Shown: positions 8,692 to 33,778 of the stretch, piece by piece
Layout: the number at the start of each line of letters is the position of its first letter
How positions within the stretch are numbered: position 1 is the first letter of the stretch
From: Actinomycetota bacterium
Lineage (GTDB): Bacteria > Actinomycetota > Acidimicrobiia > IMCC26256 > VFJJ01
Direction of reading: 5' to 3'
Assembly: GCA_009886115.1 (NCBI GenBank)
Contig: VFJJ01000204.1
Coordinates: 1 to 33,895, forward strand
DNA length: 33,895 bases
Made by a program: the position numbers and the translations under genes
Notes under the pieces: model-generated
Seen by the model: only the letters and a program-made list of their open reading frames with translations
Databases searched by the model: none
Told to the model about the DNA's origin: nothing

Positions 8692-9285
8692 TCAGACCGT
8701 GAGCGCGGCCACGATCTCGTCGAGGACGGCGGCGATGCGCTCGCTGCGCACCTCGACCGTCTCCTCGTAGTAATCGTTGGGGACCACCACGTAGCGCAGA
8801 TCGGGCAGGCCGAGCAGCCGAGCGTTCGCCGCCAACGCCGGCACGAACGGCGGGGTCACCAGCGTGACCGTCGGGATGCCCATGCGCTCCAGGTTCACGG
8901 CGTCGAGCACACTGCCCGACGTGCACGAACCTCATTTGGCGAGGCCGTTTACGACCCCCGAGCAGCTCCGCAGATGGGCGAGCAGCTCGTCGCCGGCGGG
9001 CCGTGACAGCACCGGCTTGCAGATCCGCGGCGAGTCGGCGAGGACGGCCGTCCCGTAGCGGCGCCGCAGCCCAGCCTCGATCTCGATCGTGTAGCCGTAG
9101 AAATCGGGTCCCTGCTGGCGGCTCTGCTCGTTCACCATGAAGCCGATCAGCCCGTCCATGGCGGGCATGCGCGGCGCCAGCCCGATGGAGGACTGCTCGC
9201 GCACCTGGCCTCGGGGATCGACGATCTCCATACGCCCCTTGGGCTCGACGTTCGCCACAACGTTTCGTTCCCCGGCGTCGCTCAT
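8692..9285 (-). CDS. UGSC-family selenoprotein 1 (in-frame TGA = selenocysteine)
   Basis: Read through one TGA at 8932-8934 the frame gives 197 residues with Sec118. The sequence around it is VVNGLAK-U-GSCTSGSV, the hallmark of the UGSC family, in which the first position is Sec or Cys. U118-x-x-C121 looks like a thiol/selenol redox motif. Before the TGA there is a 117-residue conserved-looking domain with MDGLIGFMV. After it comes LDAVNLERMGIPTVTLVT, continuing the same fold. Treated as a stop, the TGA would split the gene into two ORFs with no separate ribosome-binding site for the second. The ATG at 9285 overlaps the stop of the 368-aa partner (ATGA), so the pair is coupled. No membrane or signal segment. 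Function unknown, likely redox. The Sec reading depends on SelA/SelB/SelC/SelD elsewhere in the genome. Confidence 0.85.
8902..8920 (-). promoter_or_regulatory. candidate bacterial SECIS hairpin 1
   Basis: In the mRNA, 11 nt after the UGA, GTCGGGCA pairs with TGCTCGAC (8 bp, one G-U) around a GTG loop. The loop begins 20 nt after UGA and starts with G, matching the usual rule for bacterial SECIS elements (apical loop 16-37 nt downstream, G among its first two bases). An outer GGTTC/GAACC pairing (8931-8927 with 8896-8892) could close it further. Not folded by program. Confidence 0.55.
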
Positions 9286-10388
9286 GGTTCCTCGATCTCC
9301 CTCGTGACGGCGTAACCGCCGAGATGACCCCAACCTGGGCACACGACCGCCCACGGGATGCTGTCGGCGCCGCTGACCATGACGTGGATGGCCTCGGGCC
9401 GCTCGACGCAGGGGACGAGCGTGTCGTCGCTCGACTGGTCGACCCACGCGGGCCACCATTCGTACCACCACCGGGGATCGTTGTCGGGCCGGCGGGGCGA
9501 ACGCGGCCGGAGATCGCCGAGTCGCCGTCGGGCCAGCCGGAACAGCGTGTCCTGCACTGCGGTGCGGTCGAAACCGTGCCGTGCCAGGTGCCGCGCCTCC
9601 GACGGCGAGAACACCACGAGAGCCTCGCCCATGGTGTGGGCGTTGTTGTTGCCGAGCCCGGCGAGATGGTCGGCCACCTGGCCGAGGCGCTGCTCGGGAT
9701 CGTCGCCCACTCCCCAGAACGACACGCTCTGCGGGCTCTCACACGCGAACACCAAGACTGCGCTCCGGCCGGCACCGGCGCCCGCCATCGACGGCCAAGG
9801 CGTGTTGTCGGGCTCCTCGGCGATGCAGAACGCCAGCCGCCCGGGATGGCCGAAGACCTCTTTCACCGGATCGCCCGGCCGAGCACCACCCAGGTTCCAG
9901 AGCACGAGCTTGACCGCCCGACCGATGGCCACGTTGGCCCGGGCACCACCGCCGCTGAACACCGACTCTGTGGTGGCCATCCCAAGCCGGCCGACGGCCG
10001 GCCCCGACACGATCACGAGGGGCCAGCAGCCGTGGGTGGTGCAGGCCACGCCCCTGAGGTTGAAGCGCTCGTCGAGCATGGCCTCGATCGCCGCGACCAC
10101 GACCGGCATGTGCTCGGGCAGGCAGCCGGCCATGGCGGCGTTGGCCGCGACGGCCTCCACGGTGGCAATCCCGTTCCGAGGGGGAACGAGCCCGATCTCG
10201 GCGTGGGCTTCCCGGCCCGTCGCCGCGACCAGTGCATCGACGATGGCCCGGTCGGGCGCGAACGTGGGAAGCCCGTCGGTGAGGCCCAGTCGGTACGAGA
10301 GCTCGGTCCACGCCCCCGGCTCGATCGTCGACGGGAGACCGTCCATGGTTGCTCCCGGTCCCTCGGGCATGACGGTGCGAGTGTCCAT
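9282..10388 (-). CDS. UGSC-partner protein 1, function unknown
   Basis: 368 aa, soluble, no signal peptide. I cannot name the family, but it is clearly paralogous to the protein at 27563-28618: both have an N-terminal [T/G]DGLP motif, NGxxTVEAxAxNAxMAG (here about residues 82-98), a GGxARANxAIGRA-like stretch, FGxPGR, and a C-terminal RPxxxxVMVxG then WG. It sits directly upstream of UGSC selenoprotein 1 with a 4-base ATGA overlap. The GCGAGG ribosome-binding site is about 9 bases before the ATG at 10388. Only 17 bp separate it from the divergent SDR gene, so the promoters lie inside each other's coding sequence. The pairing with a UxxC protein suggests it is the catalytic or substrate-binding partner in a redox reaction. 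This is inference. Confidence 0.8.
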   Translation of the reverse strand: MDTRTVMPEGPGATMDGLPSTIEPGAWTELSYRLGLTDGLPTFAPDRAIVDALVAATGREAHAEIGLVPPRNGIATVEAVAANAAMAGCLPEHMPVVVAAIEAMLDERFNLRGVACTTHGCWPLVIVSGPAVGRLGMATTESVFSGGGARANVAIGRAVKLVLWNLGGARPGDPVKEVFGHPGRLAFCIAEEPDNTPWPSMAGAGAGRSAVLVFACESPQSVSFWGVGDDPEQRLGQVADHLAGLGNNNAHTMGEALVVFSPSEARHLARHGFDRTAVQDTLFRLARRRLGDLRPRSPRRPDNDPRWWYEWWPAWVDQSSDDTLVPCVERPEAIHVMVSGADSIPWAVVCPGWGHLGGYAVTREIEEP

Positions 10389-10405: not shown

Positions 10406-11230
10406 ATGAGCGCACTGACGGGCAAGACGGCACTGATCACCGGCGGCGCTGGGGGCATCGGACGGGCGACGGCCGAGGTCCTCGCCCGCGATGGGGCCCA
10501 GGTCACCATCGCCTCCCGCAGCGCCGGACACCTCGAGGAGGTCGCCGATCGGCTCGGGCCCAACGTGCGCTGGACGGTGTGCGACGCCACCGTTCCCGAG
10601 CAGGTGCTGGCGGCCATCGCCTTCGCCAGCGAACCCACGGGCCGTCTCGACATGGCGGTCTCGGTGCCCGGCGCCGGGCTCATGAAGCCTCTGTTGATGA
10701 CCGGCGACGACGAGTTCATGGCCGACGTCGACTTCAACGTGCGGGCCCCCTACCTCATGATCAAGCACGCCGGTCGACAGATGGCCCGCGACGGCGGAGG
10801 GGCGATCGTGGCGATCTCGTCGACGGCGGCCGTCCAGCCCGCGCGCTACCTGGCCTCGTACTGCGCAGCGAAAGCCGCCGTCGACATGATGTGCCGCGTC
10901 GCGGCCGACGAGCTGGGCGCGGTCGGGGTGCGCGTGAACGTGGTGCGTCCCGGGCTCACGGCCACCGATGCGCCCGCGGGCATGATCGCCAACCCGCAGA
11001 TCGTGGGCCTCTACATGGAGCAGCAGCCCATCACCCGGGTCGGCGAGCCCGACGACATCGCCCAGGCGTGTCGCTATCTGGTGGGTCCCGAGTCGTCGTG
11101 GGTCACCGGGCAGTGCCTCACGATCGACGGCGGTCACACGCTGCGGGCCTTCCCGCATCTCATCGGGCTCATCGAGTCGCGCTGGGGGGCCGACGCCGTG
11201 GCCCGCGGCATGCGCGGCGAGCTCGACTGA
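10406..11230 (+). CDS. SDR family NAD(P)-dependent oxidoreductase
   Basis: 274 aa, classical short-chain dehydrogenase. The cofactor loop is TGGAGGIG (12-19), then Asn111, Ser138/139, and the Tyr152-x-x-x-Lys156 pair in SYCAAKAAVD. The C-terminal VTGQCLTIDGGHTLR is typical of the FabG-like branch. ATG at 10406 was chosen over an upstream TTG at 10388, because it starts at the normal distance from the Rossmann strand. It is divergent to UGSC-partner 1 with only 17 bp between the two start codons. Substrate unknown. The neighbourhood of CoA-ester and amidohydrolase genes suggests small-molecule catabolism. Confidence 0.9.
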   Translation: MSALTGKTALITGGAGGIGRATAEVLARDGAQVTIASRSAGHLEEVADRLGPNVRWTVCDATVPEQVLAAIAFASEPTGRLDMAVSVPGAGLMKPLLMTGDDEFMADVDFNVRAPYLMIKHAGRQMARDGGGAIVAISSTAAVQPARYLASYCAAKAAVDMMCRVAADELGAVGVRVNVVRPGLTATDAPAGMIANPQIVGLYMEQQPITRVGEPDDIAQACRYLVGPESSWVTGQCLTIDGGHTLRAFPHLIGLIESRWGADAVARGMRGELD

Positions 11231-27562: not shown

Positions 27563-28618
27563 TCAGAACCCTCGAGTGACGGCTTGGGTGTTGCCCCAGC
27601 TGTGGATGGCGGCCGAGTGGAGGTTCCCGAGACCGCCGCACACCATCACCAGCACCGAGGCCGGGCGTTGGGCCAGGTGCACACGACCGTCGGTCGCGAC
27701 CCGGCCGGCGTCGGTGAGCGCCCGCTGATGGGCCGGCGGCCACCACTCGAGCGGGAGGCTGGCGTGTCGGTGGAGCAGCTCCTGCACATCGTCGATCGCG
27801 GGGACGTCGCGCCCGATGATCTCGGCCCACATCGGGTTGATGCAGACCAGGAACTCACTGTCGGGGCAGGCGACGAGGTAGCCGTTGGTGCCCATGGAAG
27901 CGACGGACTTCCCGATGATCTCCAGCAACTCGGTTCCGGTGGTGGCCACGGTGTCGCAGATGTTGGCCGTCCCCATGGCGCCGAACACGGTGACGGCGTC
28001 GCCGCGCACACCGCGTCGAACGGCGAGCGGTGCCCAGGGCGACCGGTCCTCCCATTCGCCGACCACGACGCCCGTCACCCGGCCGGGCTGGCCGAACACC
28101 GACTGCGATGTCGTCCCCACCACGTGCCCGGCGACGTTGCGCATCACGAGTCGCAGCGCTCGCCCGATCGCCGGCGCGGGGCCGGCCACGCCACCGAAGC
28201 AGCCGGCCCGGTACGGGACCCCCAGCCGGTCGCGGACCGGCCCGTTGACGAACACCGCTGGTACGACCGATCCCGTGGTGGCGTTGAGCCCGGCCAGGTC
28301 AAAGGTCGGCTCGACCATGGCTTCGAGCGCCGCGCACAGCAACGGCATGGCGTCGGAAGGCGCGCCGGCCATCACCGCATTGACGGCGAGGGCCTCGACG
28401 GTGCACACCCCGTTCGCCGGTGGGAGCACGGCCACGACGTCGTCGGACCGGCGTGTGGAGCCGGCCAGCATCGCCAGCACCCGCTCCTGCGTCGGGGGCA
28501 CCAGCGGCAGCCCGTCGCCCCAGCCCTGCTCGGCCGCGAACTCGGTGAACCCGACGACGTCGAGATCGACCTCGACCCGCTCGGCGCGGAGCACCGCGTC
28601 GGCCGCGGAGTCGGTCAC
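27563..28618 (-). CDS. UGSC-partner protein 2, function unknown
   Basis: 351 aa, soluble. Paralogue of the protein at 9282-10388. Shared features: WGDGLPLVPPT near residue 32, NGVCTVEALAVNAVMAG (about 69-85), a segment PAPAIGRALRLVMRN, FGQPGR, and a C-terminal RPASVLVMVCGG followed by WG. Local differences are large, so the copies are old. The GTG start overlaps the stop of UGSC selenoprotein 2 (GTGA), so this gene is second in its cassette, whereas partner 1 is first. No known domain could be named. Cysteines occur but no CxxC. An enzyme reduced by the adjacent UxxC protein is a working idea only. Confidence 0.8.
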   Translation of the reverse strand: MTDSAADAVLRAERVEVDLDVVGFTEFAAEQGWGDGLPLVPPTQERVLAMLAGSTRRSDDVVAVLPPANGVCTVEALAVNAVMAGAPSDAMPLLCAALEAMVEPTFDLAGLNATTGSVVPAVFVNGPVRDRLGVPYRAGCFGGVAGPAPAIGRALRLVMRNVAGHVVGTTSQSVFGQPGRVTGVVVGEWEDRSPWAPLAVRRGVRGDAVTVFGAMGTANICDTVATTGTELLEIIGKSVASMGTNGYLVACPDSEFLVCINPMWAEIIGRDVPAIDDVQELLHRHASLPLEWWPPAHQRALTDAGRVATDGRVHLAQRPASVLVMVCGGLGNLHSAAIHSWGNTQAVTRGF

Positions 28619-29169
28619 GGTGTCACTCCCAGGCTGCGCAAGAGCTCGGGCAGGAACCTCGCGGCGATCATGCGCACCTCGGTCTCGGGCTGGGTGTCGA
28701 GGGGATACGGCAAGATGACCAAGGGCAGCTGCGCTCGTCCGGCGCTGGCCGCCAGGGTCTCGCCCAGAGCCCGGAACTGCTCCGTGCAGACGGCGACCGC
28801 CGCCTTGTGCCCGTCGACCACGGCGAGAGCGTCGTGGATCGTCCAGGCCGTGCAGGAGCCTCAGTTGGCCAGGCCCACCACGGCCAGGTCGACGCCGGCC
28901 ACGAACTCGACGAGCTCACGCTCCATGCGCCGACCCTCGTCGCCGCTGCGCGACCCGGTCCGCCAGCGGACGATCTCGGCGCCCCGGGCCTCGAGCTCGG
29001 CCGACCAGACCTCGCCGATCCAGTCCCACGACCGCCACATGTGGTCGAGCCTGAGCCCGACCTTCAGGCCCGACAGGTCGACGCCGACGGTCGACGTTGG
29101 TGCCGCGGCGCCGGCGGGAGCGACCGATCGAGTAGCGGCTACCGGGCTGAGGATGAGACCTCTCGTCAT
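28615..29169 (-). CDS. UGSC-family selenoprotein 2 (in-frame TGA = selenocysteine)
   Basis: Reading through the TGA at 28861-28863 gives 184 residues with Sec103: VVGLAN-U-GSCTAWTIHDAL. This is the same place and motif as in the first copy, with U103 and Cys106 forming UxxC. The N-terminal half (VGVDLSGLKVGLRLDHMWRS) differs strongly from copy 1, so the two are old paralogues. The start is fixed by GAGGGAG upstream of the ATG at 29169. The partner gene follows by GTGA overlap. Split as ordinary ORFs it would yield a 102-residue and a 68-residue fragment (the second with no ribosome-binding site at its first ATG). No membrane or signal segment. Redox function is likely, exact role unknown. It is divergent to a luciferase-like oxidoreductase. 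Confidence 0.85.
28835..28845 (-). promoter_or_regulatory. candidate bacterial SECIS hairpin 2
   Basis: After the UGA, TGGA (16-19 nt downstream) pairs with TCCA around a CGA loop that starts 20 nt after UGA, with G in its second position. The loop is at the same distance as in copy 1. The stem is only 4 bp, and an outer CACGGC/GCCGTG pairing (28852-28847 with 28824-28819) may stabilise it. A competing fold (CCACG with CGTGG) exists, so this call is weaker than copy 1. Confidence 0.4.
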
Positions 29170-29336: not shown

Positions 29337-30563
29337 ATGGAATTCGGCATCTTCCTCAACGGCTACATCCCGGGGCCGGGGGCCCACGACACCGAGTGGG
29401 AGCACACCAAGCTCATGCGCGAGGCGAAGTACACGATCTTCGCCGACAAGCACAACTGGAAGTATGCCTGGTTCGGTGAGCACCACGCCCTCGTCGAATA
29501 CAGCCACATGTCGGCCCCTGAAGTCGTGATGGGCTATGTCGCGGGCCACACCGATTACATCCACCTCTCGTCAGGGATCAACAGCCTTTCTCCCCGCAAG
29601 GAGCACCCGGTTCGCTACGCCGAGCGGGCCGCCATGCTCGACCACGTCACGAACCGACGGTACGAGTGGGGAACCGGGCGCGGGGCCGGGAGCCACGAGA
29701 TGGCCAGCTTCAACATCATGGACAAGGACTCGACCAAGCCCGAATGGGAAGAGGTCGTCCGCGAGATCCCGCGGATGTGGGAGCAGGTCGACTACACCCA
29801 CCACGGCAAGCACTTCACGGTTCCGACGCCCCACAACATCCTCCCCAAGCCCTACGGCCCCGGCCATCCCCCGATCTGGGTCGCGTGCGGGAACCCGCCC
29901 ACGTTCGCCCGGGCCGGCGAGCTCGGCATCGGCGCCATCGCGTTCAACTTCGAACCCATCTACAACCTGCGGGGTCGGGTCGAGGCCTACAAGGAAGCCA
30001 TTGCCAACTGCACCGAGCCGCTCGGGCAGTTCATCAACGACAACCTGATGATGACCAACGGCGTTATCTGCCTGGAAGATCGCGAGCGGGCGCGTGCACT
30101 CGCGTTCGATCGGGTGAGTGGTTACCTCGTCACGATGGTGAACCTCTACCACGACACGATGCCGAAGTCACCCGATGCGATCACCTGGCCGAGCGCCCCG
30201 ATCCGCCTGCGCGACCTCGCTGGCAACGACCCCGACGCCTTCCTCGACTCGCTCATCGAGGGCGGCTACATGATGGTCGGCAACCCGGAAGAGGTCTCGA
30301 AGCAGCTCGAGAGCTACAAGACGGTCGGCTGCGACCAGCTCGTGTTCGGCATCCCGGGCGACCTCCACGACGACGAGGTGCTCGAGATGATCGAGCTCTT
30401 CGGCGACCGGGTCATCCCCGAGCACGACCCCGACCGGGTGCACTCCACCGACCGCTACCGGGCCACCGCCAAGCCCAAGTACGACAGGTTCTCGGCTCCG
30501 CTGCCCGAAGGCGTCGAATGGCCGACCGTCCTCCCCGTCACCGCCACCGGTGCCACCCCCTGA
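29337..30563 (+). CDS. LLM class flavin-dependent oxidoreductase 1
   Basis: 408 aa, luciferase-like (alpha/beta) barrel using FMN or F420. Starts EFGIFLNGYIPGPG, carries the active-region WFGEHHALVEYSHMSAPE, HLSSGINSLSPRKEHPVRYAE and WGTGRGAGSHEM, and the substrate or cofactor segment PPIWVACGNPPTFARAGE. Length exceeds the usual ~330 aa by a C-terminal tail (PEHDPDRVHSTDRYR and following). GGAGC lies 7 bases before the ATG at 29337, and the frame is open upstream without support. It is divergent to UGSC selenoprotein 2. Such enzymes oxidise alkanals, alkanesulfonates or catabolic intermediates. Substrate unknown. Confidence 0.88.
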   Translation: MEFGIFLNGYIPGPGAHDTEWEHTKLMREAKYTIFADKHNWKYAWFGEHHALVEYSHMSAPEVVMGYVAGHTDYIHLSSGINSLSPRKEHPVRYAERAAMLDHVTNRRYEWGTGRGAGSHEMASFNIMDKDSTKPEWEEVVREIPRMWEQVDYTHHGKHFTVPTPHNILPKPYGPGHPPIWVACGNPPTFARAGELGIGAIAFNFEPIYNLRGRVEAYKEAIANCTEPLGQFINDNLMMTNGVICLEDRERARALAFDRVSGYLVTMVNLYHDTMPKSPDAITWPSAPIRLRDLAGNDPDAFLDSLIEGGYMMVGNPEEVSKQLESYKTVGCDQLVFGIPGDLHDDEVLEMIELFGDRVIPEHDPDRVHSTDRYRATAKPKYDRFSAPLPEGVEWPTVLPVTATGATP

Positions 30564-31891: not shown

Positions 31892-32764
31892 GTGCCCATC
31901 GAAGCCTGGCAGAACCTGGGGTTCACCGATCCGGCGATGCTGGGGCCACTGGCGCGCCTGGCCGAGGAGCTGGGCTTCGCCGGTGTGAGCCTGCCCGAGC
32001 ATCTCGCGACGCCCGAGACGATCGTCACGCCCAACCCGTACGTTCCCGGCGGCGGTTCGGGGTATGCGCCCGACACCCCGTTCCCCGACCCCTGGGTCAC
32101 CTTCGGGGCGTTGGCCGCGGTCACCGAGCGCCTTCGCTTCGTTGCCAACGTGTCGATACTGGCGCTGCGGCCGCTCGTGGTGGCGGCCAAGGCCATCTCG
32201 ACGGCGGCCGTCCTCTCGCAGAACCGGGTCGTGCTCGGCGTGGGTGTCGGCTGGCTGCGCGAGGAGTTCGAGGCCCTGGGCGTCGACTTCCGCACCCGGG
32301 GCAGACGCACCGACGAGATGCTCATGTTGTTGCCCCGCTTGCTCCGCGGCGAGATCGTGAGTGCCGACGACGAGTTCCACCGGTTCGCGGCGCTGTCGAT
32401 CTCGCCCGTCCCCGACCGAGCCCTGCCCGTGCTGGTGGGCGGGGTCAGTGACGCCGCGCTGGCCCGGGCCGCCCGGGTCGACGGGTGGATCGGTGTGAAC
32501 TTCGAGCCTGAGGTGCTCCTGCCCATCCTCGACCGGCTCGCAAGCGCCCGCAACGAGGCCGGGACGGCGGCGCGCCCGTTCACGATCATGGTCTCGCGTC
32601 CGCCCACGTTCTCGAACAAGGTGGCCCGGGCCTACGAGGCAGCCGGCGTCACCGCGATCGTCAACCGTCCCACGGGTTTCAGTGTCGGAACCGATGTCGA
32701 TATCGACGCCAGCCTCGACGCCCACCGGCGCGTCATGGAGGAGTTCCAGACCCTGCTCGCGTGA
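31892..32764 (+). CDS. LLM class flavin (probably F420)-dependent oxidoreductase 2
   Basis: 290 aa, close to the family standard. WVTFGALAAVTERLRF, NVSILALRPLVVAAKA and the signature VLGVGVGWLREEFEALGV are typical of the F420-dependent LLM branch. RGRRTDEMLMLLPRLLRGE and LPVLVGGVSDAALARAAR follow in the expected order. The start is the GTG at 31892, which gives the N-terminal PIEAWQNLGF strand. It is downstream of the SnoaL-like gene by 20 bp and converges on a third LLM gene. It probably oxidises or reduces a catabolic intermediate with F420. The cofactor is inferred from the branch. Confidence 0.87.
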   Translation: MPIEAWQNLGFTDPAMLGPLARLAEELGFAGVSLPEHLATPETIVTPNPYVPGGGSGYAPDTPFPDPWVTFGALAAVTERLRFVANVSILALRPLVVAAKAISTAAVLSQNRVVLGVGVGWLREEFEALGVDFRTRGRRTDEMLMLLPRLLRGEIVSADDEFHRFAALSISPVPDRALPVLVGGVSDAALARAARVDGWIGVNFEPEVLLPILDRLASARNEAGTAARPFTIMVSRPPTFSNKVARAYEAAGVTAIVNRPTGFSVGTDVDIDASLDAHRRVMEEFQTLLA

Positions 32765-32791: not shown

Positions 32792-33778
32792 TCAAGCGCC
32801 GAGCACCGCAGGACGGACGACCGAGTCGAAGAGCTCGAGGCTCTCCCAGGCCAGCTCGGGTGACAGGCCGCCCATGAGCGGATGGAAGATCAGGTTGGCG
32901 TCGTCGGGCAGGGAGCGCCACAGCTCGATGCACGCCTCCGGCGTGACGACCGCGTGCATGCCGTAGGCGCGCAGGGCGTCGGCGTCGGTCATCGGCACGA
33001 AGCCCGTCTCGGTGCCGGACTCGGCCGCCCAGCGCCCGTACTCGTTCATCTCGTGCAGCGCGTGGGGCGCGATGCGCGCCCAGGCCGCGTCGGGGTCGTT
33101 GGCCACGTGCACGAAGAGCGGACCCGACGGGTTGTCGTAACGGGGGGTCTTGCCCAGCCGGGCGCACTCGTCCTCGTACACCTGCCTGATGGCGGGCTCG
33201 GGCGTCATGGCCATGAATCCGTCGGCCAGACGAGCTGCTCGGCGGGCGGTGGCCGCGGCGCCCCCGCCCACCAACACCGGCGGACGGGGTTGCTGCACGG
33301 GGGCCGGGGTCACCCGGAACGTGGCTCCCCGATAGGTGACCGGCTCACCGGTGAGCGCCGCCGTGTACACCGGGATCTTCTCCTCGATGAGCGCCACGCG
33401 GTCGGCCATGTCGAGGCCCAGCATGGCGAACTCGGCTGGCACGTACCCGAGGCCGATCGCGACTTCGACCCGTCCGTTCGAGATCTGATCGACGATCAGC
33501 GTGTCTTCGGCAGCGCGGATGGGATCGAGCAGCGGGAGGATCAACGCCCCGACACGGATGCGGGTTCGTTCGGTACGCGCCGCGACCGCAGCAGCCAAGA
33601 CCAGCGCGGACGGGAGGTAGCCGTCGGCCGAGCCGTGGTGCTCGGAGATCGTGATGCTGTCGACGCCTCGAGCGTCGGCCCACGCGCACTGCTCCAGCGC
33701 AGCCCGATACAGCGCCGGGGCCGGCGGACCGAACGCCGGCGCCCGCATGTCGTACCGCACGATCCACCGCTTCGACAT
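32792..33778 (-). CDS. LLM class flavin-dependent oxidoreductase 3
   Basis: 328 aa, full length. TISEHHGSADGYLPSALVLA, RIRVGALILPLLDPIRAAED, QISNGRVEVAIGLGYVPAEF and PPVLVGGGAAATARRAARLADG are the expected LLM segments. GGGAGAGAG lies a few bases before the ATG at 33778 and fixes the start. The frame runs a little further upstream, to 33832 inside a 7-bp tandem repeat, without support. The repeat begins 43 bp upstream of the start, so repeat length could affect its promoter. Cofactor and substrate unknown. Confidence 0.87.
   Translation of the reverse strand: MSKRWIVRYDMRAPAFGPPAPALYRAALEQCAWADARGVDSITISEHHGSADGYLPSALVLAAAVAARTERTRIRVGALILPLLDPIRAAEDTLIVDQISNGRVEVAIGLGYVPAEFAMLGLDMADRVALIEEKIPVYTAALTGEPVTYRGATFRVTPAPVQQPRPPVLVGGGAAATARRAARLADGFMAMTPEPAIRQVYEDECARLGKTPRYDNPSGPLFVHVANDPDAAWARIAPHALHEMNEYGRWAAESGTETGFVPMTDADALRAYGMHAVVTPEACIELWRSLPDDANLIFHPLMGGLSPELAWESLELFDSVVRPAVLGA

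Follow-up and report, generated by a model that had tools for sequence, protein, structure and literature searches.

The DNA analysed here (the window) is a stretch of 33,895 nucleotides, contig C101 of an Actinomycetota genome of 5.45 Mb in 224 contigs. The window holds two cassettes, A and B, in each of which a gene of the UGSC selenoprotein family lies next to the gene of a partner protein. The gene order in A is the reverse of that in B. The question raised by the locus is why the same pair is kept twice, in two orders, and what the two proteins may do together. The features of the cassettes and of their neighbours are the following.

Cassette B
28615..29169, minus strand: gene 1, UGSC-family selenoprotein (PF24696 match), 184 aa if the UGA is read as selenocysteine (Sec)
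28861..28863, minus strand: in-frame UGA, codon 103, Sec position of the U-G-S-C motif (LANUGSCTAW)
28831..28849, minus strand: weak candidate bSECIS hairpin, 6/8 pairs, -3.7 kcal/mol
28615..28618, minus strand: 4-base overlap GTGA, UGSC stop and partner start
27563..28618, minus strand: gene 2, partner, 351 aa, GTG start
29337..30563, plus strand: luciferase-like monooxygenase (PF00296, E 8e-39), divergent, outside the unit

Cassette A
9282..10388, minus strand: gene 1, partner, 368 aa
8692..9285, minus strand: gene 2, UGSC-family selenoprotein (PF24696 match), 197 aa
8932..8934, minus strand: in-frame UGA, codon 118
8902..8920, minus strand: bSECIS-like hairpin, 8-bp stem, loop GUG, 19 nt past the UGA, 8/8 pairs, -13.7 kcal/mol
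10406..11230, plus strand: SDR (PF13561, E 1.3e-51), divergent, outside the unit

The sequence-only reading had placed cassette B at 27563-29169, with the selenoprotein first, the partner second and a 4-base overlap, and had named a luciferase-like gene as the neighbour of B and an SDR as that of A. All of this was borne out, with cassette B on the minus strand and its GTGA at 28618-28615. The UGSC frame of B contains one in-frame TGA, stays open through to the partner overlap and ends at a terminal TGA (28617-28615). In cassette A the partner comes before the UGSC gene and the two overlap by ATGA. The gene beside cassette B belongs to a cluster of three luciferase-like monooxygenases (29337-30563, 31892-32764 and 32792-33778). 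Within the window, Rfam at gathering thresholds detected no RNA.

The two cassettes had also been described as diverged copies of the same two families, which agrees with the profile searches. Both selenoproteins match PF24696 (B, E 1.8e-28, 100.2 bits; A, E 1.9e-30, 106.7 bits; gathering cut-off 25) and share 28% identity, and the partners are 33% identical over 349 aa (E 2e-30). The UGSC equivalog NF041046 gives 58.4 bits for B and 71.2 bits for A, below its 125-bit cut-off. By these scores, the A and B selenoproteins are members of the UGSC family outside the NCBI equivalog core.

The host genome contains eight UGSC genes, all of which have a single in-frame TGA, and eight partner genes, and all eight pairs are adjacent, so the pairing is more than chance. 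The pairing had been recognized from the two cassettes of the window, though their number was understated. The partner precedes the UGSC gene in five cassettes (C1, C179, C154, C44 and A) and follows it in three (C193, C149 and B); in C193 the two are fused in one continuous gene. The neighbours of the eight cassettes are catabolic and include SDRs, luciferase-like enzymes (five luciferase-like monooxygenases), alcohol dehydrogenases, acyl-CoA ligases, CoA-transferases and P450s. Many of the closest named loci of the C179 partner are from Acidimicrobiia, which makes this the probable class of the host.

The same association extends through the phylum. The UGSC family is above the cut-off in 27 of 396 genomes, all 27 of which also carry the partner (Fisher 8e-40), and the partner is found without UGSC in 2/396, one of them a weak match. 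Many genomes with only one of the two genes, the case that would have spoken against a kept pair, are thus not what the phylum contains. The partner is adjacent and on the same strand at 47 of 50 UGSC loci; the remaining three include a fragment and a locus cut by a contig end. A genome-wide scan recovered more than 500 partner relatives, and among the best 80, which the neighbourhood counts cover, 72 have an adjacent UGSC gene on the same strand. Three of the other eight have a divergent UGSC motif nearby and two are cut by contig ends. Wherever the UGSC motif of these best 80 relatives is readable it carries UGA (74/74). Three loci listed as partners without an adjacent UGSC (L088, L096 and L103) were rejected as such, having the UGSC motif on the opposite strand. 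The internal TGAs of two partners (G362) were likewise discarded, being terminal stops read through.

Plasmid records with the pair come from haloarchaea, Roseovarius, Variovorax, Neorhizobium, Vibrio, Arthrobacter and Sporomusa, and annotate the partner as ‘hypothetical protein’. Fusions of UGSC and partner occur in Variovorax boronicumulans and Neorhizobium galegae as well as in C193. In terms of gene content and order, UGSC and the partner are co-inherited, adjacent and at times fused, and the pair travels together through bacteria and archaea.

Several loci show other arrangements. One genome (G183, locus L081) has partner genes only, as tandem and divergent duplicates on one contig, with a tRNA-Sec present and no UGSC gene found. 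In two haloarchaeal loci (L166 and L177) a single UGSC gene, of the Cys type in L166, apparently forms a partner-UGSC-partner triad, near CoA-transferase and TAXI-TRAP genes; L177 also has CoA ester lyase and luciferase-like genes. In the annotation of Paracoccus ferrooxidans the UGSC gene (L172:6411-6980) is broken at its Sec UGA into two hypothetical proteins, and selB lies ~3.3 kb downstream of the partner. An Arthrobacter UGSC protein (L171:9027-9842) ends, as judged by eye, in a NifU-like tail that contains a CSDC motif.

The history of the pair was followed in partner and UGSC trees of 46 cassettes. The trees have 20 of 43 splits in common, and the strongly supported splits of each are mostly recovered in the other (12/13 and 8/8), with no strong conflict. 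The patristic distances correlate with a Mantel value of 0.77, compared with a permutation maximum of 0.41. When only the eight paralogs of the host are used, which removes the species tree from the correlation, r is 0.75 and is matched by 70 of 40,320 permutations. The comparison of the two phylogenies, suggested as a check of co-evolution, therefore yields matching trees. Both place cassettes B and C149 as sisters (100 and 93).

Gene order is clustered by clade, with 3 and 5 changes on the two trees against ~10.8 expected. Since order follows the clades and B shares its order with its sister C149, the difference between A and B is old and not a local rearrangement. The earlier proposal that selection had kept the pairing thus stands, but local rearrangement or recent acquisitions as the cause of the swapped order do not. 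On the evidence of the trees, A and B are old paralogous cassettes.

The reading of the in-frame UGA as Sec can be assessed across the family. In the alignment of the UGSC motif, the UGA of cassette B falls on UGA in 40 Actinobacteriota copies and on Cys codons in five. The 40 Sec-type copies have an 8-bp hairpin, typically with G in its triloop, that starts ~11 nt after the UGA. Stem pairing averages 7.2/8 in these copies, compared with 3.4/8 in the five Cys homologs. The stem shows 16 double changes versus 5.9 after shuffling, a value reached by none of 500 shuffles, and its covariation also exceeds that of all slid registers. In the clearest case, a change from TGC to TGG is matched on the other arm by a silent third-base change in a Val codon. 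The hairpin of cassette B has a 4-bp inner stem (UGGA/UCCA), a CGA loop and a flanking C.C mismatch. The published bSECIS limits (PMC13188914) are passed by A and by 39 of the 40 Sec copies, B being the only failure. The limits are unspecific because 58% of random TGA contexts also pass, and they were rejected as evidence for Sec when taken alone.

The host genome contains selB, one tRNA-Sec above the Rfam cut-off and a thioredoxin reductase. A tRNA-Sec of at least 60 bits is present in 23/23 genomes with a Sec-type UGSC; at the lower bar of 57 bits it is found in one of four genomes whose UGSC forms are all non-Sec (58.7 bits) and in 6/20 without UGSC. SelA or SelB genes recur among the immediate cassette neighbours in the broad clade, and in G313 and G123 the tRNA-Sec gene lies ~0.5 kb from the cassette. 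The UGSC family hence displays a Sec-coding context, and the reading of UGA as Sec is supported because genomic selB and tRNA-Sec occur together with a covarying hairpin that has no counterpart in the Cys homologs. Gene 1 of cassette B probably encodes a selenium-containing protein.

The AlphaFold2 model of the UGSC protein (pLDDT 88.5) is a (beta-alpha)5 domain with flavodoxin/Rossmann-like matches and with Sec at the start of a helix. A Trx fold does not appear in this predicted model, which alternates strands and helices. The UGSC domain aligns with the Sec domain of GrdB, Sec to Sec, at an hhalign probability of 52% (E 1.5e-4; reversed control 0.3%), a value obtained with the full domain, and no signal remains when the sequences are cut at the motif. 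The homology of the two domains is borderline. In the Pfam scan the A and B UGSC proteins have no match to PF07355 (GrdB), and the partner has no detectable similarity to GrdB (hhalign 0.4%). The GrdB/PrdB reductases also have a pro-protein subunit that forms a pyruvoyl group (GrdE/PrdA). In the partner alignment no Cys is invariant. Some Actinobacteriota GrdB-family genes (L183-L189) have an in-frame UGA in a UGTGTR motif.

The partner proteins are linked to thioredoxin in two ways. An N-terminal Trx-like domain of ~117 residues is present on 78 of 80 partners of a clade spread over many phyla. It contains a CxTC motif, a VPT motif of the cis-proline type and a third invariant Cys (RPGCGS), and its profile matches PDB thioredoxins (E 1.3e-6) and Pfam thioredoxin-like families. 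In the host this domain is present on the C179 partner and absent from those of A and B. In addition, trxB or TrxB-like genes lie beside the pair at 6 of 14 plasmid loci: trxB, joined once by trxA, is beside or near it in Arthrobacter, Variovorax SRS16 and Roseovarius, and TrxB-like neighbours occur at three more. Near Sec-type cassettes TrxB-like genes are rare.

The reading preferred here, with a probability of roughly 0.55, is that cassette B is one of eight copies of a two-protein, thioredoxin-fed Sec/Cys redox unit, in which the partner would bind the substrate in a GrdB/PrdB-like manner. We infer a reductase mechanism and a substrate role along these lines. The Sec at the head of a helix in the Rossmann/flavodoxin-like UGSC domain would attack, as the nucleophile, a bond of the substrate that the partner holds. 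A selenenylsulfide would then form within the UGxC pair, and thioredoxin would reduce it, restoring the selenol. Thioredoxin would be built into some partners, and cassettes A and B would receive it in trans. Such a mechanism would resemble that of the GrdB/PrdB reductases. The substrate, set by the partner, would vary among the eight paralogs, which would serve different catabolic gene neighbourhoods, and it is plausible that A and B act on different putative substrates. Taken as a whole, the pair may tentatively be seen as a previously undescribed class, a two-protein thioredoxin-fed Sec reductase of many phyla, with Cys forms in haloarchaea, a partner-set substrate and eight paralogs in one genome.

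Several observations count against the preferred reading. The hairpin of cassette B is weak and the only one in 40 to fall outside the bSECIS limits, neither window cassette has the Trx domain, the relation to GrdB is borderline and TrxB-like genes are rare near Sec-type cassettes. Cassette B also lacks two partner residues, Cys87 and Cys186, that nearly all partner-first copies conserve. Moreover, in some fusions UGSC is replaced by DMGTSS or DMGTSV (L169, Sporomusa termitida; L173, Vibrio europaeus; L082, one Actinobacteriota genome). With both Sec and Cys missing from the motif, these members of the family cannot use Sec/Cys chemistry. The Sporomusa and Vibrio fusions lie near aconitase X and DUF126 genes, and a related FAD oxidoreductase follows the fusion in Sporomusa and L082.

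The partner itself gives few clues. No Pfam or NCBIfam family is above cut-off for A or B, Pfam finds only weak and scattered matches on 65 partners, and in sequence searches of the PDB neither the partner profile nor the UGSC profile had a match. The AlphaFold2 model of the partner (pLDDT 90.6) has no convincing structural relative (best VIA-align Z 5.0). The partner thus resembles no characterised enzyme, and its role as a substrate binder is a guess. It could instead be a stand-alone hydrolase or lyase, similar to Toblerone hydrolases or class I fumarases, with UGSC only protecting or activating it by redox control. Foldseek does report a weak similarity to class I fumarate hydratase (E 4e-5) and to cyclic amide hydrolases (E ~6e-3), but with TM-scores of 0.2-0.3 and VIA-align Z of at most 5, and a partner that worked alone fits poorly with its near-absence from genomes without UGSC (2/396, one weak). 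This alternative is considered improbable. A chorismate mutase-like half, class I fumarase and Toblerone hydrolases were each rejected as the partner fold, their matches being too weak (VIA-align Z <=5).

A true stop at the UGA of cassette B, in a decaying gene whose partner alone is made, would account for a hairpin that is weak and a family outlier. On the other hand, the frame beyond the UGA is open and conserved up to the 4-base overlap with the partner, the divergence of B and C149 runs parallel in the two trees, and the UGA is kept in all eight copies of a genome with selB and tRNA-Sec, which makes decay very unlikely. The pair might also be a repair or detoxification system that reduces, for example, peroxides, selenoxides or disulfides and in which the partner is a scaffold rather than a substrate-specific enzyme. 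A thioredoxin-fed Sec in a UxxC motif is typical of Prx/Msr-like selenoproteins too, and many copies per genome would suit such a task. Nevertheless, the cassettes lie among catabolic genes (SDR, luciferase-like, acyl-CoA ligase, CoA-transferase, P450), other copies lie beside TRAP/TTT transporter genes, and both kinds of neighbour point to specific substrates. Nor does the predicted UGSC fold resemble that of Trx or Prx, and a repair role is judged unlikely.

The UGSC selenoprotein family, now in Pfam (PF24696) and NCBIfam (NF041046), was described in a 2008 ocean survey (Zhang and Gladyshev, PMC2398784), whose passages on UGSC rank it with the most abundant selenoproteins of ocean and freshwater metagenomes. 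They also report a fusion with an ‘Unknown_1’ domain, which may be the present partner. In a 2026 review UGSC is listed without a function, and the passages on selenoprotein operons do not include it. The literature found contains no description of the partner family, of its Trx fusion or of an obligate pairing in two orders. With its obligate partner, the built-in thioredoxin and the natural fusions, this abundant family offers a concrete complex to purify and assay. In public records the partner is a ‘hypothetical protein’ and the UGSC gene is in some cases split at the UGA.

The pair resembles the thioredoxin and thioredoxin reductase system in that many partners carry a fused Trx-like domain with a CxTC motif, and some pairs have trxB or TrxB-like genes next to them. 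The domain differs from thioredoxin by its extra invariant Cys (RPGCGS), and cassettes A and B lack it. GrdB and PrdB are two-component, thioredoxin-linked reductases. UGSC shares with GrdB (PF07355) and PrdB a Sec-bearing U-G-x-x motif, which is preceded by a strand and followed by a helix and LERxGIP; unlike GrdB, UGSC is a stand-alone domain and its partner has no GrdB similarity. The A and B selenoproteins are members of the family of the 2008 survey (PMC2398784) by PF24696, and whereas its passages on UGSC propose a Trx-like fold, the fold predicted here is flavodoxin/Rossmann-like.
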